Made by a program: the position numbers and the translations under genes. A model generated the notes under the pieces. The model was not told where the DNA came from and did no database searches. It worked only from the letters and a program-made list of their open reading frames with translations. DNA of 64,000 bases from Brachyhypopomus gauderio (taxonomy: Eukaryota; Chordata; Actinopteri; Gymnotiformes; Hypopomidae), in the NCBI RefSeq assembly GCF_052324685.1, contig NW_027506919.1, positions 117,314-181,313 of the forward strand, given 5' to 3'. Positions 1 to 64,000 of the stretch are shown here, piece by piece (the stretch's first letter is position 1; every line of letters starts with the position of its first letter).

Positions 1-15
1 AAAAAGCCATGGCGT

Positions 16-89
16 GGCGCCGTGGCTTAGCTGGTCATAGCGCCTGTCTAGTAAACAGGAAGTCCTGGGTTCAAATCCCAGCGGTGCCT
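16..89 (+). tRNA. tRNA-Thr(AGT)
   Basis: Consensus copy. The cloverleaf is complete: acceptor GGCGCCG with CGGTGCC (six Watson-Crick pairs plus G4-T69), anticodon stem CCTGT (43-47) with ACAGG, loop CTAGTAA with anticodon AGT at 50-52, T arm CTGGG-TTCAAAT-CCCAG, discriminator T. The A34 is expected to be edited to inosine to read ACU, ACC and ACA (known for the family). There is no intron and no encoded CCA. The sequence closely matches vertebrate tRNA-Thr(AGT). The run after the gene is only TTT, so transcription may continue into the linker. Confidence 0.95.
23..34 (+). promoter_or_regulatory. Pol III A box of tRNA-Thr
   Basis: TGGCTTAGCTGG fits the A-box consensus TRGCNNAGYNGG. The matching B box GGTTCAAATCC is at 68-78. 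The same boxes lie at S+7 and S+52 in nearly all Thr copies. Confidence 0.9.
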
Positions 90-169
90 TTCTATTATGT
101 AAGCAGTTGTTAGGTCATGACATTCAGCCTCATGCTGAAGAGCAACTGTCAAAACTTTAACACATACTG
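90..169 (+). other. Thr-Arg linker with nested inverted repeat (first of about 215)
   Basis: An outer stem CAGTTG (104-109) pairs with CAACTG (143-148). An inner stem TTCAGC (123-128) pairs with GCTGAA (134-139) around a CTCAT loop. The 8-bp palindrome GTCATGAC sits at 114-121. Linkers come in two main forms, CTATTATG/TTCAGC and CCTTTATG/TTTAGC; the second keeps the inner stem through a G-T wobble. The same block follows every Thr gene and every chimera. Most copies have no run of four Ts. What the linker does is unknown. Confidence 0.8.
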
Positions 170-280
170 GGCTCTGTGGAGCAATGGATAGCGCATTGGA
201 CTTCTAGACGCAGGTGTGTGTCCATTCAAAGGTTGTTGGTTCGAGGAAGGAAGTCCTGGGTTCAAATCCCAGCGGTGCCT
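170..280 (+). pseudogene. Arg-Thr chimeric tRNA gene
   Basis: The 5' part (170 to about 245) is tRNA-Arg(TCT) through GGTTCGAG, with A11 and a T in the intron (GTGTGTGTCC). From about 248 it switches to the 3' part of tRNA-Thr (AGGAAGTCC onward: T arm, acceptor 3' strand, discriminator T280). The ends could still pair: GGCTCTG with CGGTGCC leaves one T4-T69 mismatch. The leftover Arg sequence would form a variable region of about 26 nt, so the spliced RNA would be about 94 nt with a TCT anticodon. This copy has GTTGTTGG. Whether it is expressed is unknown; A11 weakens the D stem and A box. A normal linker and full Arg gene follow. Confidence 0.85.
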
Positions 281-360
281 TTCTATTATGTAAGCAGTTG
301 TTAGGTCATGACATTCAGCCTCATGCTGAAGAGCAACTGTCAAAACCTTAACACATACTG

Positions 361-450
361 GGCTCTGTGGAGCAATGGATAGCGCATTGGACTTCTAGAC
401 GCAGGTGTGTGGCCATTCAAAGGTTGTGGGTTCGAGTACCACCAGAGTCG
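361..450 (+). tRNA. tRNA-Arg(TCT), intron
   Basis: A11+A61; the commonest defective Arg class, with a broken D-stem pair and a broken B box. Possibly silent. Confidence 0.6.
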
Positions 451-523
451 TTTTTTCTTTGAAAACAACAAAATTCATCGCTCCTCACTAATGACACCAA
501 TGCACAGTAAAAAGCCATGGCGC

Positions 524-597
524 GGCGCCGTGGCTTAGCTGGTCATAGCGCCTGTCTAGTAAACAGGAAGTCCTGGGTTCAAATCCCAGCGGTGCCT
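524..597 (+). tRNA. tRNA-Thr(AGT)
   Basis: Consensus. Confidence 0.94.
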
Positions 598-677
598 TTC
601 CTTTATGTAAGCAGTTGTTAGGTCATGACATTCAGCCTCATGCTGAAGAGCAACTGTCAAAACTTTAACACATACTG

Positions 678-767
678 GGCTCTGTGGCGCAATGGATAGC
701 GCATTGGACTTCTAGACGCAGGTGTGTGGCCATTCAAAGGTTGTGGGTTCGAGTCCCACCAGAGTCG
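678..767 (+). tRNA. tRNA-Arg(TCT), intron
   Basis: Consensus copy. Acceptor GGCTCTG pairs with CAGAGTC (G2-T71 wobble), D stem GCGC with GCGC, anticodon stem TTGGA with TTCAA, T arm GTGGG-TTCGAGT-CCCAC, discriminator G. Anticodon TCT is at 711-713. A 17-nt intron (715-731, GACGCAGGTGTGTGGCC) follows A37, the standard eukaryotic position, giving a 73-nt mature tRNA that reads AGA. It closely matches vertebrate tRNA-Arg(TCT), a family known to have introns. A six-T terminator follows. Confidence 0.95.
746..756 (+). promoter_or_regulatory. Pol III B box of tRNA-Arg
   Basis: GGTTCGAGTCC is a perfect B box. The A box, TGGCGCAATGG, is at 685-695. In the A61 class the first of the two final Cs is lost. 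Confidence 0.9.
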
Positions 768-773
768 TTTTTT
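768..773 (+). terminator. Pol III T-run terminator after tRNA-Arg
   Basis: Six Ts follow the discriminator base directly. Full Arg copies are followed by five Ts (T5-G form), six Ts, or seven Ts; two copies (32829, 34019) have CTTTTT and one (18854) has ATTTTT. The 28 truncated Arg copies have no such run. Confidence 0.85.
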
Positions 774-840
774 CTTTGAAAACAACAAAATTCATCGCTC
801 CTCACTAATGACACCAATCCACAGTAAACAGCCATGGCGT

Positions 841-914
841 GGCGCCGTGGCTTAGCTGGTCATAGCGCCTGTCTAGTAAACAGGAAGTCCTGGGTTCAAA
901 TCCCAGCGGTGCCT
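841..914 (+). tRNA. tRNA-Thr(AGT)
   Basis: Consensus. Confidence 0.94.
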
Positions 915-994
915 TTCTATTATGTAAGCAGTTGTTAGGTCATGACATTCAGCCTCATGCTGAAGAGCAACTGTCAAAACTTTAACACATACTG

Positions 995-1084
995 GGCTCT
1001 GTGGCGCAATGGATAGCGCATTGGACTTCTAGACGCAGGTGTGTGGCCATTCAAAGGTTGTGGGTTCGAGTCCCCCCAGAGTCG
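995..1084 (+). tRNA. tRNA-Arg(TCT), intron
   Basis: C64. Confidence 0.75.
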
Positions 1085-1157
1085 TTTTTTCTTTGAAAAC
1101 AACAAAATTCATCGCTCCTCACTAATGACACCAATCCACAGTAAAAAGCCATGTCGT

Positions 1158-1231
1158 GGCGCCGTGGCTTAGCTGGTCATAGCGCCTGTCTAGTAAACAG
1201 GAAGTCCTGGGTTCAAATCCCAGCGGTGCCT
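1158..1231 (+). tRNA. tRNA-Thr(AGT)
   Basis: Consensus. Confidence 0.94.
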
Positions 1232-1311
1232 TTCTATTATGTAAGCAGTTGTTAGGTCATGACATTCAGCCTCATGCTGAAGAGCAACTGTCAAAACTTT
1301 AACACATACTG

Positions 1312-1401
1312 GGCTCTGTGGTGCAATGGATAGCGCATTGGACTTCTAGACGCAGGTGTGTGGCCATTCAAAGGTTGTGGGTTCGAGTCCCACCAGAGTC
1401 G
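1312..1401 (+). tRNA. tRNA-Arg(TCT), intron
   Basis: T11. Confidence 0.88.
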
Positions 1402-1474
1402 TTTTTTCTTTGAAAACAACAAAATTCATCGCTCCTCACTAATGACACCAATCCACAGTAAAAAGCCATGGCGT

Positions 1475-1548
1475 GGCGCTGTGGCTTAGCTGGTCATAGC
1501 GCCTGTCTAGTAAACAGGAAGTCCTGGGTTCAAATCCCAGCGGTGCCT
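1475..1548 (+). tRNA. tRNA-Thr(AGT)
   Basis: T6, forming a T-G wobble with G67. Confidence 0.9.
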
Positions 1549-1628
1549 TTCTATTATGTAAGCAGTTGTTAGGTCATGACATTCAGCCTCATGCTGAAGA
1601 GCAACTGTCAAAACTTTAACACATACTG

Positions 1629-1718
1629 GGCTCTGTGGCGCAATGGATAGCGCATTGGACTTCTAGACGCAGGTGTGTGGCCATTCAAAGGTTGTGGGTT
1701 TGAGTCCCACCAGAGTCG
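1629..1718 (+). tRNA. tRNA-Arg(TCT), intron
   Basis: T56. Confidence 0.75.
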
Positions 1719-1791
1719 TTTTTGCTTTGAAAACAACAAAATTCATCGCTCCTCACTAATGACACCAATCCACAGTAAAAAGCCATGGTGT

Positions 1792-1865
1792 GGCGCCGTG
1801 GCTTAGCTGGTCATAGCGCCTGTCTAGTAAACAGGAAGTCCTGGGTTCAAATTCCAGCGGTGCCT
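1792..1865 (+). tRNA. tRNA-Thr(AGT)
   Basis: T61. Confidence 0.85.
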
Positions 1866-1945
1866 TTCTATTATGTAAGCAGTTGTTAGGTCATGACATT
1901 CAGCCTCATGCTGAAGAGCAACTGTCAAAACTTTAACACATACTG

Positions 1946-2035
1946 GGCTCTGTGGAGCAATGGATAGCGCATTGGACTTCTAGACGCAGGTGTGTGGCCA
2001 TTCAAAGGTTGTGGGTTCGAGTACCACCAGAGTCG
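1946..2035 (+). tRNA. tRNA-Arg(TCT), intron
   Basis: A11+A61. Confidence 0.6.
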
Positions 2036-2108
2036 TTTTTTCTTTGAAAACAACAAAATTCATCGCTCCTCACTAATGACACCAATGCACAGTAAAAAGC
2101 CATGGCGC

Positions 2109-2182
2109 GGCGCCGTGGCTTAGCTGGTCATAGCGCCTGTCTAGTAAACAGGAAGTCCTGGGTTCAAATCCCAGCGGTGCCT
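2109..2182 (+). tRNA. tRNA-Thr(AGT)
   Basis: Consensus. Confidence 0.94.
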
Positions 2183-2262
2183 TTCCTTTATGTAAGCAGT
2201 TGTTAGGTCATGACATTCAGCCTCATGCTGAAGAGCAACTGTCAAAACTTTAACACAAACTG

Positions 2263-2352
2263 GGCTTTGTGGCGCAATGGATAGCGCATTGGACTTCTAG
2301 ACGCAGGTGTGTGGCCATTCAAAGGTTGTGGGTTCGAGTCCCACCCGAGTCA
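2263..2352 (+). tRNA. tRNA-Arg(TCT), intron
   Basis: T5+C67+A73: T5-G68 wobble, T6-C67 mismatch, discriminator A. Confidence 0.65.
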
Positions 2353-2425
2353 TTTTTTCTTTGAAAACAACAAAATTCATCGCTCCTCACTAATGACACC
2401 AATGCACAGTAAAAAGCCATGGCGC

Positions 2426-2499
2426 GGCGCCGTGGCTTAGCTGGTCATAGCACCTGTCTAGTAAACAGGAAGTCCTGGGTTCAAATCCCAGCGGTGCCT
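2426..2499 (+). tRNA. tRNA-Thr(AGT)
   Basis: A26. Confidence 0.92.
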
Positions 2500-2579
2500 T
2501 TCCTTTATGTAAGCAGTTGTTAGGTCATGACATTTAGCCTCCTGCTGAAGAGCAACTGTCAAAACTTTAACACATACTG

Positions 2580-2660
2580 GGCTCTGTGGCGCAATGGATA
2601 GCGCATTGGACTTCTAGACGCAGGTGTGTGGCCATTCAAAGGTTGTGGGTTCGAGTCCCA
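2580..2660 (+). pseudogene. tRNA-Arg(TCT), 3' end lost
   Basis: The gene is intact through the T-stem CCCA, then joins directly to TGGCGC and the next Thr gene six bases later. Compared with a normal unit, 76 bp are missing: the last T-stem base, the acceptor 3' strand, the discriminator, the T-run and nearly all of the spacer. Both sides of the break share CCA, so a microhomology or slippage deletion is likely. Without a terminator, transcription could run into the next Thr gene. Confidence 0.9.
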
Positions 2661-2666
2661 TGGCGC

Positions 2667-2739
2667 GGCGCTGGGCTTAGCTGGTCATAGCGCCTGTCTA
2701 GTAAACAGGAAGTCCTGGGTTCAAATCCCAGCGGTGCCT
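2667..2739 (+). tRNA. tRNA-Thr(AGT), T8 deleted
   Basis: dT8: 73 nt. The acceptor GGCGCTG still pairs (T6-G67 wobble), but the invariant T8, also the first A-box base, is missing. Probably not functional. Confidence 0.55.
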
Positions 2740-2819
2740 TTCTATTATGTAAGCAGTTGTTAGGTCATGACATTCAGCCTCATGCTGAAGAGCAACTGTC
2801 AAAACTTTAACACATACTG

Positions 2820-2909
2820 GGCTCTGTGGCGCAATGGATAGCGCATTGGACTTCTAGACGCAGGTGTGTGGCCATTCAAAGGTTGTGGGTTCGAGTACCA
2901 CCAGAGTCG
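2820..2909 (+). tRNA. tRNA-Arg(TCT), intron
   Basis: A61. Confidence 0.65.
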
Positions 2910-2982
2910 TTTTTTCTTTGAAAACAACAAAATTCATCGCTCCTCACTAATGACACCAATGCACAGTAAAAAGCCATGGCGC

Positions 2983-3056
2983 GGCGCCGTGGCTTAGCTG
3001 GTCATAGCGCCTGTCTAGTAAACAGGAAGTCCTGGGTTCAAATCCCAGCGGTGCCT
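2983..3056 (+). tRNA. tRNA-Thr(AGT)
   Basis: Consensus. Confidence 0.94.
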
Positions 3057-3136
3057 TTCCTTTATGTAAGCAGTTGTTAGGTCATGACATTTAGCCTCCT
3101 GCTGAAGAGCAACTGTCAAAACTTTAACACATACTG

Positions 3137-3226
3137 GGCTCTGTGGCGCAATGGATAGCGCATTGGACTTCTAGACGCAGGTGTGTGGCCATTCAAAGGT
3201 TGTGGGTTCGAGTACCACCAGAGTTG
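3137..3226 (+). tRNA. tRNA-Arg(TCT), intron
   Basis: A61+T72. Confidence 0.55.
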
Positions 3227-3299
3227 TTTTTTCTTTGAAAACAACAAAATTCATCGCTCCTCACTATTGACACCAATGCACAGTAAAAAGCCATGGCGC

Positions 3300-3373
3300 G
3301 GCGCCGTGGCTTAGCTGGTCATAGCGCCTGTCTAGTAAACAGGAAGTCCTGGGTTCAAATCCCAGCGGTGCCT
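3300..3373 (+). tRNA. tRNA-Thr(AGT)
   Basis: Consensus. Confidence 0.94.
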
Positions 3374-3453
3374 TTCCTTTATGTAAGCAGTTGTTAGGTC
3401 ATGACATTCAGCCTCATGCTGAAGAGCAACTGTCAAAACTTTAACACAAACTG

Positions 3454-3543
3454 GGCTTTGTGGCGCAATGGATAGCGCATTGGACTTCTAGACGCAGGTG
3501 TGTGGCCATTCAAAGGTTGTGGGTTCGAGTCCCACCCGAGTCA
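3454..3543 (+). tRNA. tRNA-Arg(TCT), intron
   Basis: T5+C67+A73; seven-T run follows. Confidence 0.65.
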
Positions 3544-3617
3544 TTTTTTTCTTTGAAAACAACAAAATTCATCGCTCCTCACTAATGACACCAATGCACA
3601 GTAAAAAGCCATGGCGT

Positions 3618-3691
3618 GGCGCCGTGGCTTAGCTGGTCATAGCGCCTGTCTAGTAAACAGGAAGTCCTGGGTTCAAATCCCAGCGGTGCCT
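3618..3691 (+). tRNA. tRNA-Thr(AGT)
   Basis: Consensus. Confidence 0.94.
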
Positions 3692-3771
3692 TTCCTTTAT
3701 GTAAGCAGTTGTTAGGTCATGACATTTAGCCTCCTGCTGAAGAGCAACTGTCAAAACTTTAACACATACTG

Positions 3772-3852
3772 GGCTCTGTGGCGCAATGGATAGCGCATTG
3801 GACTTCTAGACGCAGGTGTGTGGCCATTCAAAGGTTGTGGGTTCGAGTCCCA
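3772..3852 (+). pseudogene. tRNA-Arg(TCT), 3' end lost
   Basis: CCCA-TGG junction to the Thr at 3859. Confidence 0.9.
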
Positions 3853-3858
3853 TGGTGC

Positions 3859-3932
3859 GGCGCCGTGGCTTAGCTGGTCATAGCGCCTGTCTAGTAAACA
3901 GGAAGTCCTGGGTTCAAATCCCAGCGGTGCCT
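3859..3932 (+). tRNA. tRNA-Thr(AGT)
   Basis: Consensus. Confidence 0.94.
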
Positions 3933-4012
3933 TTCTATTATGTAAGCAGTTGTTAGGTCATGACATTCAGCCTCATGCTGAAGAGCAACTGTCAAAACTT
4001 TAACACATACTG

Positions 4013-4102
4013 GGCTCTGTGGCGCAATGGATAGCGCATTGGACTTCTAGACGCAGGTGTGTGGCCATTCAAAGGTTGTGGGTTCGAGTACCACCAAAGT
4101 CG
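4013..4102 (+). tRNA. tRNA-Arg(TCT), intron
   Basis: A61+A68. Confidence 0.55.
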
Positions 4103-4175
4103 TTTTTTCTTTGAAAACAACAAAATTCATCGCTCCTCACTAATGACACCAATCCACAGTAAAAAGCCATGGCGT

Positions 4176-4249
4176 GGCGCCGTGGCTTAGCTGGTCATAG
4201 CGCCTGTCTAGTAAACAGGAAGTCCTGGGTTCAAATCCCAGCGGTGCCT
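4176..4249 (+). tRNA. tRNA-Thr(AGT)
   Basis: Consensus. Confidence 0.94.
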
Positions 4250-4329
4250 TTCTATTATGTAAGCAGTTGTTAGGTCATGACATTCAGCCTCATGCTGAAG
4301 AGCAACTGTCAAAACTTTAACACATACTG

Positions 4330-4440
4330 GGCTCTGTGGAGCAATGGATAGCGCATTGGACTTCTAGACGCAGGTGTGTGTCCATTCAAAGGTTGTGGGT
4401 TCGAGGAAGGAAGTCCTGGGTTCAAATCCCAGCGGTGCCT
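4330..4440 (+). pseudogene. Arg-Thr chimeric tRNA gene
   Basis: Same junction as at 170; GTTGTGGG form. Confidence 0.85.
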
Positions 4441-4520
4441 TTCTATTATGTAAGCAGTTGTTAGGTCATGACATTCAGCCTCATGCTGAAGAGCAACTGT
4501 CAAAACTTTAACACATACTG

Positions 4521-4610
4521 GGCTCTGTGGCGCAATGGATAGCGCATTGGACTTCTAGACGCAGGTGTGTGGCCATTCAAAGGTTGTGGGTTCGAGTCCC
4601 ACCAGAGTCG
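4521..4610 (+). tRNA. tRNA-Arg(TCT), intron
   Basis: Consensus; five-T run. Confidence 0.93.
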
Positions 4611-4683
4611 TTTTTGCTTTGAAAACAACAAAATTCATTGCTCCTCACTAATGACACCAATCCACAGTAAAAAGCCATGGCGT

Positions 4684-4757
4684 GGCGCCGTGGCTTAGCT
4701 GGTCATAGCGCCTGTCTAGTAAACAGGAAGTCCTGGGTTCAAATTCCAGCGGTGCCT
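4684..4757 (+). tRNA. tRNA-Thr(AGT)
   Basis: T61. Confidence 0.85.
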
Positions 4758-4837
4758 TTCTATTATGTAAGCAGTTGTTAGGTCATGACATTCAGCCTCA
4801 TGCTGAAGAGCAACTGTCAAAACTTTAACACATACTG

Positions 4838-4927
4838 GGCTCTGTGGAGCAATGGATAGCGCATTGGACTTCTAGACGCAGGTGTGTGGCCATTCAAAGG
4901 TTGTGGGTTCGAGTACCACCAGAGTCG
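4838..4927 (+). tRNA. tRNA-Arg(TCT), intron
   Basis: A11+A61. Confidence 0.6.
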
Positions 4928-5000
4928 TTTTTTCTTTGAAAACAACAAAATTCATCGCTCCTCACTAATGACACCAATGCACAGTAAAAAGCCATGGCGC

Positions 5001-5074
5001 GGCGCCGTGGCTTAGCTGGTCATAGCGCCTGTCTAGTAAACAGGAAGTCCTGGGTTCAAATCCCAGCGGTGCCT
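5001..5074 (+). tRNA. tRNA-Thr(AGT)
   Basis: Consensus; the linker has TTTTT at 5092-5096. Confidence 0.94.
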
Positions 5075-5154
5075 TTCCTTTATGTAAGCAGTTTTTAGGT
5101 CATGACATTTAGCCTCCTGCTGAAGAGCAACTGTCAAAACTTTAACACATACTG

Positions 5155-5244
5155 GGCTCTGTGGCGCAATGGATAGCGCATTGGACTTCTAGACGCAGGT
5201 GTGTGGCCATTCAAAGGTTGTGGGTTCGAGTCCCACCCGAGTCA
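5155..5244 (+). tRNA. tRNA-Arg(TCT), intron
   Basis: C67+A73. Confidence 0.7.
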
Positions 5245-5317
5245 TTTTTTCTTTGAAAACAACAAAATTCATCGCTCCTCACTAATGACACCAATGCACA
5301 GTAAAAAGCCATGGCGC

Positions 5318-5391
5318 GGCGCCGTGGCTTAGCTGGTCATAGCGCCTGTCTAGTAAACAGGAAGTCCTGGGTTCAAATCCCAGCGGTGCCT
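5318..5391 (+). tRNA. tRNA-Thr(AGT)
   Basis: Consensus. Confidence 0.94.
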
Positions 5392-5471
5392 TTCCTTTAT
5401 GTAAGCAGTTGTTAGGTCATGACATTTAGCCTCCTGCTGAAGAGCAACTGTCAAAACTTTAACACATACTG

Positions 5472-5552
5472 GGCTCTGTGGCGCAATGGATAGCGCATTG
5501 GACTTCTAGACGCAGGTGTGTGGCCATTCAAAGGTTGTGGGTTCGAGTCCCA
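5472..5552 (+). pseudogene. tRNA-Arg(TCT), 3' end lost
   Basis: CCCA-TGG junction to the Thr at 5559. Confidence 0.9.
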
Positions 5553-5558
5553 TGGCGC

Positions 5559-5631
5559 GGCGCTGGGCTTAGCTGGTCATAGCGCCTGTCTAGTAAACAG
5601 GAAGTCCTGGGTTCAAATCCCAGCGGTGCCT
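5559..5631 (+). tRNA. tRNA-Thr(AGT), T8 deleted
   Basis: dT8 with T6. Confidence 0.55.
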
Positions 5632-5711
5632 TTCTATTATGTAAGCAGTTGTTAGGTCATGACATTCAGCCTCATGCTGAAGAGCAACTGTCAAAACTTT
5701 AACACATACTG

Positions 5712-5801
5712 GGCTCTGTGGCGCAATGGATAGCGCATTGGACTTCTAGACGCAGGTGTGTGGCCATTCAAAGGTTGTGGGTTCGAGTACCACCAGAGTC
5801 G
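5712..5801 (+). tRNA. tRNA-Arg(TCT), intron
   Basis: A61. Confidence 0.65.
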
Positions 5802-5874
5802 TTTTTTCTTTGAAAACAACAAAATTCATCGCTCCTCACTAATGACACCAATCCACAGTAAAAAGCCATGGCGT

Positions 5875-5948
5875 GGCGCCGTGGCTTAGCTGGTCATAGC
5901 GCCTGTCTAGTAAACAGGAAGTCCTGGGTTCAAATCCCAGCGGTGCCT
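5875..5948 (+). tRNA. tRNA-Thr(AGT)
   Basis: Consensus. Confidence 0.94.
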
Positions 5949-6028
5949 TTCTATTATGTAAGCAGTTGTTAGGTCATGACATTCAGCCTCATGCTGAAGA
6001 GCAACTGTCAAAACTTTAACACATACTG

Positions 6029-6118
6029 GGCTCTGTGGCGCAATGGATAGCGCATTGGACTTCTAGACGCAGGTGTGTGGCCATTCAAAGGTTGTGGGTT
6101 CGAGTACCACCAGAGTCG
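6029..6118 (+). tRNA. tRNA-Arg(TCT), intron
   Basis: A61. Confidence 0.65.
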
Positions 6119-6191
6119 TTTTTTCTTTGAAAACAACAAAATTCATCGCTCCTCACTAATGACACCAATCCACAGTAAAAAGCCATGTCGT

Positions 6192-6265
6192 GGTGCCGTG
6201 GCTTAGCTGGTCATAGCGCCTGTCTAGTAAACAGGAAGTCCTGGGTTCAAATCCCAGCGGTGCCT
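6192..6265 (+). tRNA. tRNA-Thr(AGT)
   Basis: T3, forming a T-G wobble with G70. Confidence 0.88.
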
Positions 6266-6345
6266 TTCTATTATGTAAGCAGTTGTTAGGTCATGACATT
6301 CAGCCTCATGCTGAAGAGCAACTGTCAAAACTTTAACACATACTG

Positions 6346-6435
6346 GGCTCTGTGGTGCAATGGATAGCGCATTGGACTTCTAGACGCAGGTGTGTGGCCA
6401 TTCAAAGGTTGTGGGTTCGAGTCCCACCAGAGTCG
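6346..6435 (+). tRNA. tRNA-Arg(TCT), intron
   Basis: T11. Confidence 0.88.
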
Positions 6436-6508
6436 TTTTTTCTTTGAAAACAACAAAATTCATCGCTCCTCACTAATGACACCAATCCACAGTAAAAAGC
6501 CATGGCGT

Positions 6509-6582
6509 GGCGCCGTGGCTTAGCTGGTCATAGCGCCTGTCTAGTAAACAGGAAGTCCTGGGTTCAAATCCCAGCGGTGCCT
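6509..6582 (+). tRNA. tRNA-Thr(AGT)
   Basis: Consensus. Confidence 0.94.
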
Positions 6583-6662
6583 TTCTATTATGTAAGCAGT
6601 TGTTAGGTCATGACATTCAGCCTCATGCTGAAGAGCAACTGTCAAAACTTTAACACATACTG

Positions 6663-57233: not shown

Positions 57234-57313
57234 TTCTATTATGTAAGCAGTTGTTAGGTCATGACATTCAGCCTCATGCTGAAGAGCAACTGTCAAAACT
57301 TTAACACATACTG

Positions 57314-57403
57314 GGCTCTGTGGCGCAATGGATAGCGCATTGGACTTCTAGACGCAGGTGTGTGGCCATTCAAAGGTTGTGGGTTCGAGTCCCACCAGAG
57401 TCG
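57314..57403 (+). tRNA. tRNA-Arg(TCT), intron
   Basis: Consensus. Confidence 0.93.
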
Positions 57404-57476
57404 TTTTTTCTTTGAAAACAACAAAATTCATCGCTCCTCACTAATGACACCAATGCACAGTAAAAAGCCATGGCGC

Positions 57477-57550
57477 GGCGCCGTGGCTTAGCTGGTCATA
57501 GCGCCTGTCTAGTAAACAGGAAGTCCTGGGTTCAAATCCCAGCGGTGCCT
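57477..57550 (+). tRNA. tRNA-Thr(AGT)
   Basis: Consensus. Confidence 0.94.
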
Positions 57551-57630
57551 TTCCTTTATGTAAGCAGTTGTTAGGTCATGACATTTAGCCTCCTGCTGAA
57601 GAGCAACTGTCAAAACTTTAACACATACTG

Positions 57631-57720
57631 GGCTCTGTGGCGCAATGGATAGCGCATTGGACTTCTAGATGCAGGTGTGTGGCCATTCAAAGGTTGTGGG
57701 TTCGAGTCCCACCCGAGTCA
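57631..57720 (+). tRNA. tRNA-Arg(TCT), intron
   Basis: C67+A73; intron starts GATGCAGG. Confidence 0.7.
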
Positions 57721-57793
57721 TTTTTTCTTTGAAAACAACAAAATTCATCACTCCTCACTAATGACACCAATGCACAGTAAAAAGCCATGGCGC

Positions 57794-57867
57794 GGCGCCG
57801 TGGCTTAGCTGGTCATAGCGCCTGTCTAGTAAACAGGAAGTCCTGGGTTCAAATCCCAGCGGTGCCT
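57794..57867 (+). tRNA. tRNA-Thr(AGT)
   Basis: Consensus. Confidence 0.94.
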
Positions 57868-57947
57868 TTCCTTTATGTAAGCAGTTGTTAGGTCATGACA
57901 TTTAGCCTCCTGCTGAAGAGCAACTGTCAAAACTTTAACACATACTG

Positions 57948-58028
57948 GGCTCCGTGGCGCAATGGATAGCGCATTGGACTTCTAGACGCAGGTGTGTGGC
58001 TATTCAAAGGTTGTGGGTTCGAGTCCCA
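57948..58028 (+). pseudogene. tRNA-Arg(TCT), 3' end lost
   Basis: C6. Junction to the Thr at 58035. Confidence 0.9.
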
Positions 58029-58034
58029 TGGCGC

Positions 58035-58108
58035 GGCGCCGTGGCTTAGCTGGTCATAGCGCCTGTCTAGTAAACAGGAAGTCCTGGGTTCAAATCCCAG
58101 CGGTGCCT
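58035..58108 (+). tRNA. tRNA-Thr(AGT)
   Basis: Consensus. Confidence 0.94.
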
Positions 58109-58188
58109 TTCTATTATGTAAGCAGTTGTTAGGTCATGACATTCAGCCTCATGCTGAAGAGCAACTGTCAAAACTTTAACACATACTG

Positions 58189-58278
58189 GGCTCTGTGGCG
58201 CAATGGATAGCGCATTGGACTTCTAGACGCAGGTGTGTGGCCATTCAAAGGTTGTGGGTTCGAGTACCACCAGAGTCG
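58189..58278 (+). tRNA. tRNA-Arg(TCT), intron
   Basis: A61. Confidence 0.65.
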
Positions 58279-58351
58279 TTTTTTCTTTGAAAACAACAAA
58301 ATTCATCGCTCCTCACTAATGACACCAATCCACAGTAAAAAGCCATGGCGT

Positions 58352-58425
58352 GGCGCCGTGGCTTAGCTGGTCATAGCGCCTGTCTAGTAAACAGGAAGTC
58401 CTGGGTTCAAATCCCAGCGGTGCCT
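58352..58425 (+). tRNA. tRNA-Thr(AGT)
   Basis: Consensus. Confidence 0.94.
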
Positions 58426-58505
58426 TTCTATTATGTAAGCAGTTGTTAGGTCATGACATTCAGCCTCATGCTGAAGAGCAACTGTCAAAACATTAACACA
58501 TACTG

Positions 58506-58595
58506 GGCTCTGTGGAGCAATGGATAGCGCATTGGACTTCTAGACGCAGGTGTGTGGCCATTCAAAGGTTGTGGGTTCGAGTACCACCAGAGTCA
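58506..58595 (+). tRNA. tRNA-Arg(TCT), intron
   Basis: A11+A61+A73. Confidence 0.55.
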
Positions 58596-58668
58596 TTTTT
58601 TCTTTGAAAACAACAAAATTCATCGCTCCTCACTAATGACACCAATGCACAGTAAAAAGCCATGGCGC

Positions 58669-58742
58669 GGCGCCGTGGCTTAGCTGGTCATAGCGCCTGT
58701 CTAGTAAACAGGAAGTCCTGGGTTCAAATCCCAGCGGTGCCT
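58669..58742 (+). tRNA. tRNA-Thr(AGT)
   Basis: Consensus. Confidence 0.94.
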
Positions 58743-58822
58743 TTCCTTTATGTAGGCAGTTGTTAGGTCATGACATTCAGCCTCATGCTGAAGAGCAACT
58801 GTCAAAACTTTAACACATACTG

Positions 58823-58912
58823 GGCTCTGTGGCGCAATGGATAGCGCATTGGACTTCTAGACGCAGGTGTGTGGCCATTCAAAGGTTGTGGGTTCGAGTC
58901 CCACCAGAGTCG
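58823..58912 (+). tRNA. tRNA-Arg(TCT), intron
   Basis: Consensus. Confidence 0.93.
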
Positions 58913-58985
58913 TTTTTTCTTTGAAAACAACAAAATTCATCGCTCCTCACTAATTACACCAATCCACAGTAAAAAGCCATGGCGT

Positions 58986-59059
58986 GGCGCCGTGGCTTAG
59001 CTGGTCATAGCGCCTGTCTAGTAAACAGGAAGTCCTGGGTTCAAATTCCAGCGGTGCCT
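58986..59059 (+). tRNA. tRNA-Thr(AGT)
   Basis: T61. Confidence 0.85.
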
Positions 59060-59139
59060 TTCTATTATGTAAGCAGTTGTTAGGTCATGACATTCAGCCT
59101 CATGCTGAAGAGCAACTGTCAAAACTTTAACACATACTG

Positions 59140-59229
59140 GGCTCTGTGGAGCAATGGATAGCGCATTGGACTTCTAGACGCAGGTGTGTGGCCATTCAAA
59201 GGTTGTGGGTTCGAGTACCACCAGAGTCG
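59140..59229 (+). tRNA. tRNA-Arg(TCT), intron
   Basis: A11+A61. Confidence 0.6.
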
Positions 59230-59302
59230 TTTTTTCTTTGAAAACAACAAAATTCATCGCTCCTCACTAATGACACCAATGCACAGTAAAAAGCCATGGC
59301 GC

Positions 59303-59376
59303 GGCGCCGTGGCTTAGCTGGTCATAGCGCCTGTCTAGTAAACAGGAAGTCCTGGGTTCAAATCCCAGCGGTGCCT
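59303..59376 (+). tRNA. tRNA-Thr(AGT)
   Basis: Consensus. Confidence 0.94.
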
Positions 59377-59456
59377 TTCCTTTATGTAAGCAGTTGTTAG
59401 GTCATGACATTTAGCCTCCTGCTGAAGAGCAACTGTCAAAACTTTAACACATACTG

Positions 59457-59546
59457 GGCTCTGTGGCGCAATGGATAGCGCATTGGACTTCTAGATGCAG
59501 GTGTGTGGCCATTCAAAGGTTGTGGGTTCGAATCCCACCCGAGTCA
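59457..59546 (+). tRNA. tRNA-Arg(TCT), intron
   Basis: C67+A73, plus A59 in the T loop. Confidence 0.68.
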
Positions 59547-59619
59547 TTTTTTCTTTGAAAACAACAAAATTCATCACTCCTCACTAATGACACCAATGCA
59601 CAGTAAAAAGCCATGGCGC

Positions 59620-59693
59620 GGCACTGTGGCTTAGCTGGTCATAGCGCCTGTCTAGTAAACAGGAAGTCCTGGGTTCAAATCCCAGCGGTGCCT
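59620..59693 (+). tRNA. tRNA-Thr(AGT)
   Basis: A4+T6; all acceptor positions still pair. Confidence 0.88.
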
Positions 59694-59773
59694 TTCCTTT
59701 ATGTAAGCAGTTGTTAGGTCATGACATTTAGCCTCCTGCTGAAGAGCAACTGTCAAAACTTTAACACATACTG

Positions 59774-59854
59774 GGCTCCGTGGCGCAATGGATAGCGCAT
59801 TGGACTTCTAGACGCAGGTGTGTGGCCATTCAAAGGTTGTGGGTTCGAGTCCCA
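59774..59854 (+). pseudogene. tRNA-Arg(TCT), 3' end lost
   Basis: C6. Junction to the Thr at 59861. Confidence 0.9.
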
Positions 59855-59860
59855 TGGCGC

Positions 59861-59934
59861 CGCGCCGTGGCTTAGCTGGTTATAGCGCCTGTCTAGTAAA
59901 CAGGAAGTCCTGGGTTCAAATCCCAGCGGTGCCT
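59861..59934 (+). tRNA. tRNA-Thr(AGT)
   Basis: C1, mismatched with C72; D loop GGTTATA. Confidence 0.78.
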
Positions 59935-60014
59935 TTCTATTATGTAAGCAGTTGTTAGGTCATGACATTCAGCCTCATGCTGAAGAGCAACTGTCAAAAC
60001 TTTAACACATACTG

Positions 60015-60104
60015 GGCTCTGTGGAGCAATGGATAGCGCATTGGACTTCTAGACGCAGGTGTGTGGCCATTCAAAGGTTGTGGGTTCGAGTACCACCAGA
60101 GTCG
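60015..60104 (+). tRNA. tRNA-Arg(TCT), intron
   Basis: A11+A61. Confidence 0.6.
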
Positions 60105-60177
60105 TTTTTTCTTTGAAAACAACAAAATTCATCGCTCCTCACTAATGACACCAATGCACAGTAAAAAGCCATGGCGC

Positions 60178-60251
60178 GGCGCCGTGGCTTAGCTGGTCAT
60201 AGCGCCTGTCTAGTAAACAGGAAGTCCTGGGTTCAAATCCCAGCGGTGCCT
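60178..60251 (+). tRNA. tRNA-Thr(AGT)
   Basis: Consensus. Confidence 0.94.
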
Positions 60252-60331
60252 TTCCTTTATGTAGGCAGTTGTTAGGTCATGACATTCAGCCTCATGCTGA
60301 AGAGCAACTGTCAAAACTTTAACACATACTG

Positions 60332-60421
60332 GGCTCTGTGGCGCAATGGATAGCGCATTGGACTTCTAGACGCAGGTGTGTGGCCATTCAAAGGTTGTGG
60401 GTTCGAGTCCCACCAGAGTCG
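60332..60421 (+). tRNA. tRNA-Arg(TCT), intron
   Basis: Consensus. Confidence 0.93.
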
Positions 60422-60494
60422 TTTTTTCTTTGAAAACAACAAAATTCATCGCTCCTCACTAATGACACCAATCCACAGTAAAAAGCCATGGCGT

Positions 60495-60568
60495 GGCGCC
60501 GTGGCTTAGCTGGTCATAGCGCCTGTCTAGTAAACAGGAAGTCCTGGGTTCAAATTCCAGCGGTGCCT
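60495..60568 (+). tRNA. tRNA-Thr(AGT)
   Basis: T61. Confidence 0.85.
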
Positions 60569-60648
60569 TTCTATTATGTAAGCAGTTGTTAGGTCATGAC
60601 ATTCAGCCTCATGCTGAAGAGCAACTGTCAAAACTTTAACACATACTG

Positions 60649-60738
60649 GGCTCTGTGGAGCAATGGATAGCGCATTGGACTTCTAGACGCAGGTGTGTGG
60701 CCATTCAAAGGTTGTGGGTTCGAGTACCACCAGAGTCG
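60649..60738 (+). tRNA. tRNA-Arg(TCT), intron
   Basis: A11+A61. Confidence 0.6.
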
Positions 60739-60811
60739 TTTTTTCTTTGAAAACAACAAAATTCATCGCTCCTCACTAATGACACCAATGCACAGTAAAA
60801 AGCCATGGCGC

Positions 60812-60885
60812 GGCGCCGTGGCTTAGCTGGTCATAGCGCCAGTCTAGTAAACAGGAAGTCCTGGGTTCAAATCCCAGCGGTGCCT
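60812..60885 (+). tRNA. tRNA-Thr(AGT)
   Basis: A29, mismatched in the anticodon stem. Confidence 0.78.
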
Positions 60886-60965
60886 TTCCTTTATGTAAGC
60901 AGTTGTTAGGTCATGACATTTAGCCTCCTGCTGAAGAGCAACTGTCAAAACTTTAACACATACTG

Positions 60966-61055
60966 GGCTCTGTGGCGCAATGGATAGCGCATTGGACTTC
61001 TAGACGCAGGTGTGTGGCCATTCAAAGGTTGTGGGTTCGAGTCCCACCAGAGTCG
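60966..61055 (+). tRNA. tRNA-Arg(TCT), intron
   Basis: Consensus; five-T run. Confidence 0.93.
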
Positions 61056-61128
61056 TTTTTGCTTTGAAAACAACAAAATTCATCGCTCCTCACTAATGAC
61101 ACCAATCCACAGTAAAAAGCCATGGCGT

Positions 61129-61202
61129 GGCGCCGTGGCTTAGCTGGTCATAGCGCCTGTCTAGTAAACAGGAAGTCCTGGGTTCAAATTCCAGCGGTGC
61201 CT
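61129..61202 (+). tRNA. tRNA-Thr(AGT)
   Basis: T61. Confidence 0.85.
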
Positions 61203-61282
61203 TTCTATTATGTAAGCAGTTGTTAGGTCATGACATTCAGCCTCATGCTGAAGAGCAACTGTCAAAACTTTAACACATACTG

Positions 61283-61363
61283 GGCTCTGTGGCGCAATGG
61301 ATAGCGCATTGGACTTCTAGACGCAGGTGTGTGGCCATTCAAAGGTTGTGGGTTCGAGTCCCA
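61283..61363 (+). pseudogene. tRNA-Arg(TCT), 3' end lost
   Basis: CCCA-TGG junction to the Thr at 61370. Confidence 0.9.
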
Positions 61364-61369
61364 TGGCGC

Positions 61370-61443
61370 GGCGCCGTGGCTTAGCTGGTTATAGCGCCTG
61401 TCTAGTAAACAGGAAGTCCTGGGTTCAAATCCCAGCTGTGCCT
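61370..61443 (+). tRNA. tRNA-Thr(AGT)
   Basis: T67, mismatched with C6; D loop GGTTATA. Confidence 0.78.
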
Positions 61444-61523
61444 TTCTATTATGTAAGCAGTTGTTAGGTCATGACATTCAGCCTCATGCTGAAGAGCAAC
61501 TGTCAAAACTTTAACACATTCTG

Positions 61524-61613
61524 GGCTCTGTGGCGCAATGGATAGCGCATTGGACTTCTAGACGCAGGTGTGTGGCCATTCAAAGGTTGTGGGTTCGAGT
61601 ACCACCAGAGTCG
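61524..61613 (+). tRNA. tRNA-Arg(TCT), intron
   Basis: A61. Confidence 0.65.
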
Positions 61614-61686
61614 TTTTTTCTTTGAAAACAACAAAATTCATCGCTCCTCACTAATGACACCAATCCACAGTAAAAAGCCATGGCGT

Positions 61687-61760
61687 GGTGCCGTGGCTTA
61701 GCTGGTCATAGCGCCTGTCTAGTAAACAGGAAGTCCTGGGTTCAAATCCCAGTGGTGCCT
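61687..61760 (+). tRNA. tRNA-Thr(AGT)
   Basis: T3 and T66, both wobble pairs. Confidence 0.82.
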
Positions 61761-61840
61761 TTCTATTATGTAAGCAGTTGTTAGGTCATGACATTCAGCC
61801 TCATGCTGAAGAGCAACTGTCAAAACTTTAACACATACTG

Positions 61841-61929
61841 GGCTCTGTGGCGCAATGGATAGCGCATTGGACTTCTAGACGCAGGTGTGTGGCCATTCAA
61901 AGGTTGTGGGTTGAGTCCCACCAGAGTCG
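61841..61929 (+). tRNA. tRNA-Arg(TCT), intron
   Basis: 89 nt: one T-loop base (C56) is missing, so the B box is broken. Likely a pseudogene. Confidence 0.5.
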
Positions 61930-62002
61930 TTTTTGCTTTGAAAACAACAAAATTCATCGCTCCTCACTAATGACACCAATCCACAGTAAAAAGCCATGGC
62001 GT

Positions 62003-62076
62003 GGCGCCGTGGCTTAGCTGGTCATAGCGCCTGTCTAGTAAACAGGAAGTCCTGGGTTCAAATTCCAGCAGTGCCT
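62003..62076 (+). tRNA. tRNA-Thr(AGT)
   Basis: T61+A67. Confidence 0.72.
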
Positions 62077-62156
62077 TTCTATTATGTAAGCAGTTGTTAG
62101 GTCATGACATTCAGCCTCATGCTGAAGAGCAACTGTCAAAACTTTAACACATACTG

Positions 62157-62246
62157 GGCTCTGTGGAGCAATGGATAGCGCATTGGACTTCTAGACGCAG
62201 GTGTGTGGCCATTCAAAGGTTGTGGGTTCGAGTACCACCAGAGTCG
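62157..62246 (+). tRNA. tRNA-Arg(TCT), intron
   Basis: A11+A61. Confidence 0.6.
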
Positions 62247-62319
62247 TTTTTTCTTTGAAAACAACAAAATTCATCGCTCCTCACTAATGACACCAATGCA
62301 CAGTAAAAAGCCATGGCGC

Positions 62320-62393
62320 GGCGCCGTGGCTTAGCTGGTCATAGCGCCTGTCTAGTAAACAGGAAGTCCTGGGTTCAAATCCCAGCGGTGCCT
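62320..62393 (+). tRNA. tRNA-Thr(AGT)
   Basis: Consensus. Confidence 0.94.
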
Positions 62394-62473
62394 TTCCTTT
62401 ATGTAGGCAGTTGTTAGGTCATGACATTCAGCCTCATGCTGAAGAGCAACTGTCAAAACTTTAACACATACTG

Positions 62474-62563
62474 GGCTCTGTGGCGCAATGGATAGCGCAT
62501 TGGACTTCTAGACGCAGGTGTGTGGCCATTCAAAGGTTGTGGGTTCGAGTCCCACCAGAGTCG
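62474..62563 (+). tRNA. tRNA-Arg(TCT), intron
   Basis: Consensus. Confidence 0.93.
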
Positions 62564-62636
62564 TTTTTTCTTTGAAAACAACAAAATTCATCGCTCCTCA
62601 CTAATTACACCAATCCACAGTAAAAAGCCATGGCGT

Positions 62637-62710
62637 GGCGCCGTGGCTTAGCTGGTCATAGCGCCTGTCTAGTAAACAGGAAGTCCTGGGTTCAAATCCC
62701 AGCGGTGCCT
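62637..62710 (+). tRNA. tRNA-Thr(AGT)
   Basis: Consensus. Confidence 0.94.
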
Positions 62711-62790
62711 TTCTATTATGTAAGCAGTTGTTAGGTCATGACATTCAGCCTCATGCTGAAGAGCAACTGTCAAAACTTTAACACATACTG

Positions 62791-62880
62791 GGCTCTGTGG
62801 AGCAATGGATAGCGCATTGGACTTCTAGACGCAGGTGTGTGGCCATTCAAAGGTTGTGGGTTCGAGTACCACCAGAGTCG
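62791..62880 (+). tRNA. tRNA-Arg(TCT), intron
   Basis: A11+A61. Confidence 0.6.
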
Positions 62881-62953
62881 TTTTTTCTTTGAAAACAACA
62901 AAATTCATCGCTCCTCACTAATGACACCAATGCACAGTAAAAAGCCATGGCGC

Positions 62954-63027
62954 GGCGCCGTGGCTTAGCTGGTCATAGCGCCTGTCTAGTAAACAGGAAG
63001 TCCTGGGTTCAAATCCCAGCGGTGCCT
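62954..63027 (+). tRNA. tRNA-Thr(AGT)
   Basis: Consensus. Confidence 0.94.
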
Positions 63028-63107
63028 TTCCTTTATGTAAGCAGTTGTTAGGTCATGACATTTAGCCTCCTGCTGAAGAGCAACTGTCAAAACTTTAACA
63101 CATACTG

Positions 63108-63197
63108 GGCTCTGTGGCGCAATGGATAGCGCATTGGACTTCTAGACGCAGGTGTGTGGCCATTCAAAGGTTGTGGGTTCGAGTACCACCAGAGTCG
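63108..63197 (+). tRNA. tRNA-Arg(TCT), intron
   Basis: A61. Confidence 0.65.
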
Positions 63198-63270
63198 TTT
63201 TTTCTTTGAAAACAACAAAATTCATCGCTCCTCACTATTGACACCAATGCACAGTAAAAAGCCATGGCGC

Positions 63271-63344
63271 GGCGCCGTGGCTTAGCTTGTCATAGCGCCT
63301 GTCTAGTAAACAGGAAGTCCTGGGTTCAAATCCCAGCGGTGCCT
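63271..63344 (+). tRNA. tRNA-Thr(AGT)
   Basis: T18: the invariant D-loop GG is GCTTG here, which also changes the A box. Confidence 0.7.
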
Positions 63345-63424
63345 TTCCTTTATGTAAGCAGTTGTTAGGTCATGACATTCAGCCTCATGCTGAAGAGCAA
63401 CTGTCAAAACTTTAACACAAACTG

Positions 63425-63514
63425 GGCTTTGTGGCGCAATGGATAGCGCATTGGACTTCTAGACGCAGGTGTGTGGCCATTCAAAGGTTGTGGGTTCGAG
63501 TCCCACCCGAGTCA
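63425..63514 (+). tRNA. tRNA-Arg(TCT), intron
   Basis: T5+C67+A73. Confidence 0.65.
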
Positions 63515-63587
63515 TTTTTTCTTTGAAAACAACAAAATTCATCGCTCCTCACTAATGACACCAATGCACAGTAAAAAGCCATGGCGT

Positions 63588-63661
63588 GGCGCCGTGGCTT
63601 AGCTGGTCATAGCGCCTGTCTAGTAAACAGGAAGTCCTGGGTTCAAATCCCAGCGGTGCCT
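63588..63661 (+). tRNA. tRNA-Thr(AGT)
   Basis: Consensus. Confidence 0.94.
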
Positions 63662-63741
63662 TTCCTTTATGTAAGCAGTTGTTAGGTCATGACATTTAGC
63701 CTCCTGCTGAAGAGCAACTGTCAAAACTTTAACACATACTG

Positions 63742-63822
63742 GGCTCTGTGGCGCAATGGATAGCGCATTGGACTTCTAGACGCAGGTGTGTGGCCATTCA
63801 AAGGTTGTGGGTTCGAGTCCCA
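63742..63822 (+). pseudogene. tRNA-Arg(TCT), 3' end lost
   Basis: CCCA-TGG junction to the Thr at 63829. Confidence 0.9.
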
Positions 63823-63828
63823 TGGCGC

Positions 63829-63902
63829 GGCTCCGTGGCTTAGCTGGTCATAGCGCCTGTCTAGTAAACAGGAAGTCCTGGGTTCAAATCCCAGCGGTGC
63901 CT
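63829..63902 (+). tRNA. tRNA-Thr(AGT)
   Basis: T4. Confidence 0.8.
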
Positions 63903-63982
63903 TTCTATTATGTAAGCAGTTGTTAGGTCATGACATTCAGCCTCATGCTGAAGAGCAACTGTCAAAACTTTAACACATACTG

Positions 63983-64000
63983 GGCTCTGTGGCGCAATGG
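63983..64000 (+). tRNA. tRNA-Arg(TCT), cut by window end
   Basis: Only the first 18 bases are present, matching the consensus. Confidence 0.8.

Follow-up and report, generated by a model that had tools for sequence, protein, structure and literature searches.

A 317-bp tRNA-Thr(AGT)-tRNA-Arg(TCT) unit forms a long satellite-like gene array in Brachyhypopomus gauderio

Heterogeneous tRNA gene (tDNA) clusters that combine Arg(TCT) with Thr(AGT or TGT) have been reported for Danio, in a survey where nearly all Danio tDNA pairs are parallel and from which the definitions of tDNA cluster and pair are taken here (Bermudez-Santana et al. 2010, PMC2888827). The large tRNA clusters of zebrafish are described as showing near-complete CpG methylation in embryos at 3 and 5.7 hpf, most tRNA genes of the embryo as being without accessible chromatin, and tRNA levels as not tracked by tRNA gene copy number (PMC11574265). 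Early isodecoders in zebrafish were reported to come from repetitive regions and late isodecoders from dispersed genes, with the Thr-AGT share increasing late, at 10 and 24 hpf (PMC11417395), and a maternal role has been proposed for the tRNA genes of chromosome 4 (PMC11075544). Further afield, the Ser-Tyr-Tyr (SYY) cluster of Arabidopsis is reported to be methylated and silent in most tissues, and its Tyr genes have introns (PMC12308677); the tRNA gene arrays of Entamoeba are reported to contain almost all of that organism's tRNA genes (PMC2652664).

We analysed a stretch of 64,000 nucleotides from B. gauderio (the window), which proved to be a Thr-Arg tDNA array. The array fills all 64 kb in a single orientation (1..64000, + strand), inside a + block of ~151.6 kb on contig C75 (89.6-241.2 kb), and the statement of the first-pass annotation that the window holds no other sequence was confirmed. 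ARAGORN with introns allowed made 368 calls, every one of them on the + strand. They comprise 200 Thr(AGT), 165 Arg(TCT) with introns of 17-18 nt, and three labelled Pyl, which are taken as misread Arg genes. When a unit is defined from one Thr start to the following Thr start, the window contains 200 units. Of these, 157 measure 312-322 bp and 28 measure ~241 bp; the other 15, at ~508 bp, each consist of a full unit to which a 191-bp Arg-Thr fusion repeat is added. A BLAST search recovered 200 near-full and 15 partial Thr copies together with 215 Arg starts, including truncated and fused ones. The annotated figure of 200 Thr-Arg units is thus right for Thr, with 200 starts, but for Arg only 168 of the 215 starts receive an ARAGORN call (3 as Pyl), and 43 of the 47 uncalled starts would be explained by the 28 deletions together with the 15 fusions. 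Chance can be excluded as the cause of this arrangement, because the copies in register number hundreds and their mean pairwise identity is 0.975 in the + block. The description of a tRNA-gene satellite of ~317-bp units is borne out. That the Thr(AGT)-Arg(TCT) pair itself is undescribed is not supported; the pairing is not new, for the same pair was already reported for Danio (PMC2888827).

In a representative full unit of 317 bp (524..840, +), tRNA-Thr(AGT) (524..597, +; Rfam tRNA, 66.4 bits) is followed by an 80-bp spacer (598..677, +), an intron-bearing tRNA-Arg(TCT) (678..767, +; Rfam tRNA, 58.7 bits) and a T6 run (768..773, +). This is the sole run of at least four Ts in the unit consensus, where none stands ahead of the Arg gene, and such a run is present 3' of Arg in 157/157 full units of the window. 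The Arg intron of 17 nt is presumed, by the 37/38 rule, to lie at 715..731 (+), whereas ARAGORN places it one base later. Units of 241 bp (for example 2426..2666, +) carry a 76-bp deletion that, among the 58 units of this kind in the + block, spans unit positions 233-308 in 56; lost with it are the 3' end of Arg, the terminator and the greater part of the second spacer; an Arg 5'/Thr 3' fusion of the 508-bp class is found at 170..280 (+). No structure is claimed for the 80-nt Thr-Arg spacer, because shuffles fold comparably (z = -0.98 and -0.55 for its two main forms, with 31/200 and 57/200 shuffles as good). The spacers between 500 and 1500 of the window gave no Rfam match at E ≤ 10. A candidate tRNA-Met relic in the spacer, picked post hoc after the sequence had been seen, was rejected, as 26 of 1000 shuffles reach its local score.

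Across the 614 units compared, the Thr-Arg spacer is free of a T≥4 run, the canonical Pol III terminator, in 579, and such a run is retained 3' of Arg in 610. This is the layout of a dicistronic tRNA gene, with no terminator between the two tRNAs and one after the second. The T4-free spacer therefore predicts Thr-Arg co-transcripts; 1173 of 2000 spacer shuffles are also free of T4, so that its absence by itself is unremarkable.

The array extends past the window, from 76.1 kb of C75 to an end between 354.3 and 360 kb (~270-280 kb), and head-to-tail homogenised repeats thus span more than 100 kb. Two strand flips divide it into three orientation blocks with mean pairwise unit identities of 0.930, 0.975 (the + block of the window) and 0.971, and from the array length we estimate ~900 units per version. 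The beginning of contig C7 carries an apparent second version of the locus: flank samples of the two contigs match in 3/5 cases (99.4-100% identity), and both versions have three orientation blocks in the same order, with different block lengths. Two independent loci were considered and dropped, given the matching flank samples; duplication is the alternative to alleles. In the genome, 942 exact spacer matches were found, 437 of them within 1-310 kb of C75, and the 100 matches listed are all on C7; a fusion-junction pattern, representing one variant of the unit, occurs at 30/30 places on C7 and C75 only. These positions bear on a possible tRNA-derived SINE, whose copies would be scattered over the genome by retrotransposition.

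It could be argued that an assembler inflated a few real units, since the C7 version sits close to where its contig ends, and both versions contain strand flips. However, 285 distinct sequences occur among the 614 units, C75 is 958,944 bp long with non-array sequence on either side of the array, and the second version differs in block lengths while sharing flank samples. The array is therefore not an obvious assembly artefact, because its units differ and a second version is apparent, and we consider inflation by the assembler very improbable.

In the + block, identical unit pairs number 0 at lag 1, 25/311 at lag 6 and 20/307 at lag 21, and in the third block 16/179 at lag 6 and 21/140 at lag 45. 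These counts point to blockwise amplification. Identity at lag 6 lies only slightly above the all-lag mean (0.9771 vs. 0.9751), and a simple higher-order repeat was ruled out, as no lag dominates. With regard to neighbouring genes, a search for FISNA in the style of zebrafish chromosome 4 gave 150 genome matches (150 of 182 candidates scored), 0 of which are on C75 or C7. The non-array sequence examined on C75 contains 117 stop-to-stop open reading frames of at least 110 aa; four were scanned against Pfam, of which one matched (zf-BED) and three had no match.

Many array copies are decaying. At CpG sites, 22 of 22 possible transitions are observed, compared with 53 of 129 for C/G sites outside CpG (P = 3×10−8), and the sequence favours a satellite-like, germline-methylated array. 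Distinct variants per non-CpG C/G site are more numerous in the genes (1.23) than in the spacers (0.76; P = 0.001) and are equal at A/T sites (0.57 vs. 0.55). Because the genes hold no fewer distinct variants than the spacers, selection for tRNA output is not clearly indicated. In 184/614 units the stem test is passed for both tRNAs, and in 276/614 the acceptor and T stems of Arg show full pairing. The CpG decay, the number of gene variants and the frequent stem defects together suggest that most copies are individually dispensable.

The variant counts and stem defects, and the commonness of deletion and fusion units, are what one would expect of a pure satellite, shaped by unequal exchange and drift, silent at every stage and making no meaningful tRNA. 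In contrast, non-CpG sites show minor variants at a lower mean frequency in Thr (0.0081) and in exon 1 of Arg (0.0079) than in either spacer (0.0255 in spacer 1 and 0.0172 in spacer 2), with 0.0207 in Arg exon 2 and 0.0054 in the intron; the Thr stems are fully paired in 417/614 units, the Thr consensus is exact in 285/614, and the run of Ts after Arg is nearly always kept. Selection on each of hundreds of copies would moreover be weak even in an array that is used. A pure satellite is a serious possibility, though not the explanation we favor. Alternatively, dense TFIIIC sites could serve as a boundary or in nuclear organisation regardless of tRNA output, and a boundary role has been proposed for a human tRNA tandem repeat (PMC4041453). 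The B box is exact in 505/614 Thr genes but in only 358/614 Arg genes, and boundary action would seem to require far fewer copies, so that we regard a chromatin role as unlikely.

Exact-pattern searches outside the array found five Arg-TCT genes and one Thr gene of dispersed type. The array Thr consensus differs from this single dispersed Thr at 6/74 positions, a difference that a maternal-type model would predict for Thr. The mature array Arg consensus is identical to dispersed Arg genes on C6, C19 and C20 (3/5 found), and array Arg is therefore no distinct isodecoder; its intron is unlike those of all five dispersed Arg genes.

Taken together, we put at about 50% the probability that this is a clustered tDNA array like those described for zebrafish, amplified blockwise and methylated in the germline, with any function lying in egg-stage supply. 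The Thr(AGT)-Arg(TCT) pair would have grown at one locus to an array of ~270-280 kb, and unequal exchange of several-unit blocks is its most likely cause; observed are the array, its strand blocks, the deletion and fusion units and two assembled versions, whereas the exchange is inferred. Methylation in the germline is suggested by the CpG decay and, by analogy with zebrafish, the array is probably packed as heterochromatin and inactive in the majority of somatic cells, where the few dispersed genes may serve. If the array is functional, its likeliest role would be to provide in bulk, during egg formation, Arg-TCT and a maternal-type isodecoder of Thr, both from the minority of units that are intact, Thr and Arg often being made as one precursor that ends at the T run 3' of Arg. 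Counted against this explanation are the array Arg, which is not distinct, the late rise of Thr-AGT in zebrafish, the failure of copy number to track tRNA levels there and the inaccessible chromatin of most tRNA genes in its embryos, as well as the number of distinct gene variants and the slight identity excess at lag 6. A stronger proposal, an egg-specific tRNA factory in which intact units yield dicistronic Pol III precursors and an array-only Thr isodecoder for the embryo, from a methylated and structurally fluid locus whose block order persists while block lengths vary between haplotypes, seems to us unlikely.

Long tRNA clusters make assembly and read assignment difficult, which complicates any judgement of whether they are used. 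Because the array Thr and the Arg intron differ from the dispersed genes found, use of a satellite array, including in the egg, can be tested here by ordinary tRNA sequencing. Should most of it prove silent, the array would caution against reading tRNA supply from tRNA gene counts.

Multi-tRNA units in tandem, with another tRNA set, also make up the Xenopus tandem tRNA repeat, and the Arabidopsis SYY cluster is far smaller than the present array. The latter shares the tandem multi-tRNA unit but belongs to a plant, involves other tRNAs and is reported to be reactivated in root cap cells (PMC12308677); the Entamoeba arrays are likewise tandem multi-tRNA units with different tRNA sets (PMC2652664). 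Among the matches listed from the fish tRNA array literature, mostly titles and the beginnings of abstracts, none describes a uniform 317-bp Thr-Arg array. The closest counterparts are in zebrafish. As in the reported Arg-Thr clusters (PMC2888827), both isoacceptors occur in one cluster with interspersed pseudogenes, and Arg(TCT) and Thr(AGT) are adjacent and parallel, less than 1 kb apart and present in many copies, whereas here one uniform unit extends over ~270-280 kb with strand flips and in two assembled versions. Compared with the maternal-type clusters as reported, Arg here is no distinct isodecoder and the zebrafish Thr-AGT share rises late; CpG methylation, described directly for the zebrafish clusters, is represented here by its mutational trace. 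Like those clusters, and above all like chromosome 4, this locus places a large repetitive cluster beside few dispersed genes, and its Thr consensus differs from the one dispersed Thr found.

Contig C75, which carries the window at 117,314-181,313, is 958,944 bp long and belongs to an assembly of 840 contigs with 796.5 Mb in all. The first-pass annotation held that tRNA units fill the 64-kb window, and the tandem array indeed extends over its entire length. With introns allowed, ARAGORN made 368 calls in the window, all on the + strand, comprising 200 Thr(AGT), 165 Arg(TCT) and 3 Pyl. The figure of 200 Thr-Arg units stands for the Thr genes. Cutting the window from Thr to Thr gives 200 units, of which 157 are full, 28 bear a 76-bp deletion and 15 bear an extra 191-bp fusion repeat. 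In Rfam searches of window positions 500-1500, three Thr genes score 66.4 bits each and three Arg genes 52.6-58.7 bits.

C75 was scanned from 1 to 310 kb, where 8,067 positions are N, all but the base at 310,000 in four runs that lie between 37 and 63 kb, and was covered by samples past 310 kb. The tRNA calls fall into three orientation blocks: 76.1 to ~89.6 kb on the - strand, ~89.6 to 241.2 kb on the + strand, and from 241.2 kb on the - strand again, with an interruption at 276.96-281.13 kb. This interruption (C75:276,963-281,128, ~4.2 kb) bears no tRNA calls, and a Pfam scan of one ORF from it gave no match. The unit is present in the samples at 320, 330, 340 and 354 kb (97-98% identity) and at 350 kb (83.8%), and is absent from those at 360, 370, 390, 400, 410, 420, 430, 440, 460 and 480 kb; the 380-kb sample holds a 20-bp match to the unit and nothing more. 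A second type of Arg-Thr fusion, joined at a shared B box, is seen at positions 761-852 of the sample C75:350,000-350,900. Outside the array, C75:10,694-11,713 is an ORF with a BED zinc finger, which we take to come probably from a hAT-like transposon.

The unit consensus consists of a 74-bp Thr gene, an 80-bp spacer, a 90-bp Arg gene with a 17-nt intron, and 73 bp that open with T6, the sole run of T≥4 in the consensus. The three blocks supplied 614 full-length units (32, 389 and 193); T≥4 lies between Thr and Arg in 0/32, 20/389 and 15/193 (35/614 in total) and directly after Arg in 32/32, 385/389 and 193/193 (610/614); for the full units of the window the counts are 10/157 and 157/157. The scarcity of T≥4 in the spacer, together with its presence after Arg, predicts that transcription would read through from Thr to Arg, and a dicistronic Thr-Arg transcript would be expected. 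The missing spacer T4 is no evidence of selection, because T4 is also absent from 1173 of 2000 shuffled spacer sequences. In part, the spacer (window 598-677, and other units too) looks like tRNA-Met(CAT) over the D and anticodon arms, with a score matched by 26 of 1000 shuffles in a comparison chosen post hoc.

Identical unit pairs in the + block number 0 at lag 1, 25/311 at lag 6 and 20/307 at lag 21, and those in the third block 16/179 at lag 6 and 21/140 at lag 45. The raised counts at lags 6, 21 and 45 suggest that the array probably grew by the copying of whole multi-unit blocks. No dominant higher-order period was found among the unit lags, and the identity gain at the raised lags is small.

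What appears to be a second version of the array lies on contig C7. Exact spacer-pattern matches in the whole genome number 942 (608 forward and 334 reverse), of which 437 fall in C75 1-310 kb, and the 100 matches listed are all on C7; the fusion pattern occurs 25 times on C75, 5 times on C7 and on no other contig. The C7 copy begins near 14.46 kb and is found in samples at 150, 175, 187, 193, 200, 250, 258, 266, 274, 278 and 282 kb, but not in those at 13, 181, 290 and 300 kb. Its units run + as far as 175 kb, - between 187 and 274 kb, and + at 278 and 282 kb, which read in reverse is the three-block order of C75, with different lengths. As judged from sample positions, the + part at the C7 start spans at least ~160 kb, where the corresponding C75 block measures ~115 kb; for the middle part the estimate is 87-103 kb on C7 against ~152 kb on C75. 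Three flank samples also pair up, with their order inverted: the one at C7 13.0 kb goes with C75 360.3 kb (100% across 278 of the 350 bp; these are its only two places in the genome), C7 290 kb with C75 70.4 kb (99.4% of 350), and C7 300 kb with C75 60.4 kb (99.7% of 347). It is likeliest that the two arrays are haplotypes of one locus. Counting against this correspondence, the C7 samples at 330 and 350 kb have no match within C75 1-310 kb, and the C7 start matches C75 372.6 kb at 94.7% over 95 bp; a segmental duplication is a possible alternative.

Constraint and stem pairing were examined in units of 300-330 bp, deletion and fusion units being left out. At CpG sites all 22 possible transitions are seen, versus 53/129 at other C/G sites (p=3e-8), a trace that germline methylation would leave, and we infer that the array is methylated in the germline. 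Distinct variants per non-CpG C/G site are higher in the genes (1.23) than in the spacers and intron (0.76; p=0.001), and are equal at A/T sites (0.57 versus 0.55). Mean minor-variant frequencies at non-CpG sites rank the regions differently: 0.0081 in Thr, 0.0079 in Arg exon 1, 0.0054 in the intron, 0.0207 in Arg exon 2, 0.0255 in spacer 1 (Thr-Arg) and 0.0172 in spacer 2 (after Arg), the spacer means being driven in part by a few common variants, with spacer medians no higher than gene medians. Taken together, these measures give no clear sign of constraint on the tRNA genes, with a hint of it in Thr and Arg exon 1. Many units are decayed. Stems are fully paired in 417/614 Thr genes (acceptor, D, anticodon and T) and 276/614 Arg genes (acceptor and T only), and both tRNAs pass in 184/614 units; the window counts are 128/157, 55/157 and 42/157. 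Of the 349 units in the + block that are exactly 317 bp long, 145 have a T-stem change at unit position 232.

A search for exact Arg-TCT exons with a second intron base other than the A of the array gave eight matches, three in the C7 array and five elsewhere (two on C1 and one each on C6, C19 and C20), and a dispersed-type Thr pattern gave a single match, on C19; such exact patterns pass over genes with changes inside them or with A at the second intron base. The array Thr consensus differs from the C19 Thr gene at 6/74 positions, which lie in the D arm, the variable loop and the T loop. Alignment shows the mature array Arg consensus to be the same as the C6 and C20 genes, and inspection by eye shows this for the C19 gene, which ARAGORN labels Gly. 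The two C1 genes differ from that consensus by one changed acceptor pair; the array intron differs from those of all five. In four of the five dispersed Arg genes a T4 run lies no more than about 5 nt from where the gene is predicted to end, the C19 gene having none in the 40 nt examined, and the first T4 of the dispersed Thr gene is about 20 nt downstream.

Two other long tRNA gene series appear among the best 63 of 74,024 candidates, at C71:47,835-514,296 with many steps of ~8.7-9.7 kb and at C7:24.15-24.29 Mb with many steps of ~1,219 bp or multiples. The best 47 of 24,554 candidates for 5S rRNA include an array at C14:8.569-8.626 Mb (step ~1,087 bp) and three lower-scoring genes on C28 and C469, a split possibly resembling that of maternal and somatic 5S. 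The FISNA domain is typical of fish, and at least 150 matches to it are present in the genome. Compared with human genes, the tRNA genes mark the host as a vertebrate, and the FISNA matches together with the genome size make a teleost probable.

In zebrafish, repetitive regions are reported to encode the early isodecoders and scattered genes the late ones, with the rise in the Thr-AGT share coming late (PMC11417395), and tRNA genes of chr4 are proposed to be maternal (PMC11075544). Near-complete CpG methylation of large zebrafish tRNA clusters is described, along with tRNA levels that do not correlate with gene copy number (PMC11574265), and a methylated tRNA array in a plant is reactivated in one tissue (PMC12308677). 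Use of the present array in the egg is a prediction. The pairing of Thr and Arg tRNA genes is already described: R-T is reported among the commonest adjacent tRNA gene pairs of Danio, and in the same source the legend of Figure 4, which gives no species, describes a cluster that contains Arg(TCT) and Thr(AGT or TGT) genes in multiple copies (PMC2888827). The C75 array, which shares both isoacceptors, Arg(TCT) and Thr(AGT), with that cluster, is a real and large example of an already known kind of tDNA array.
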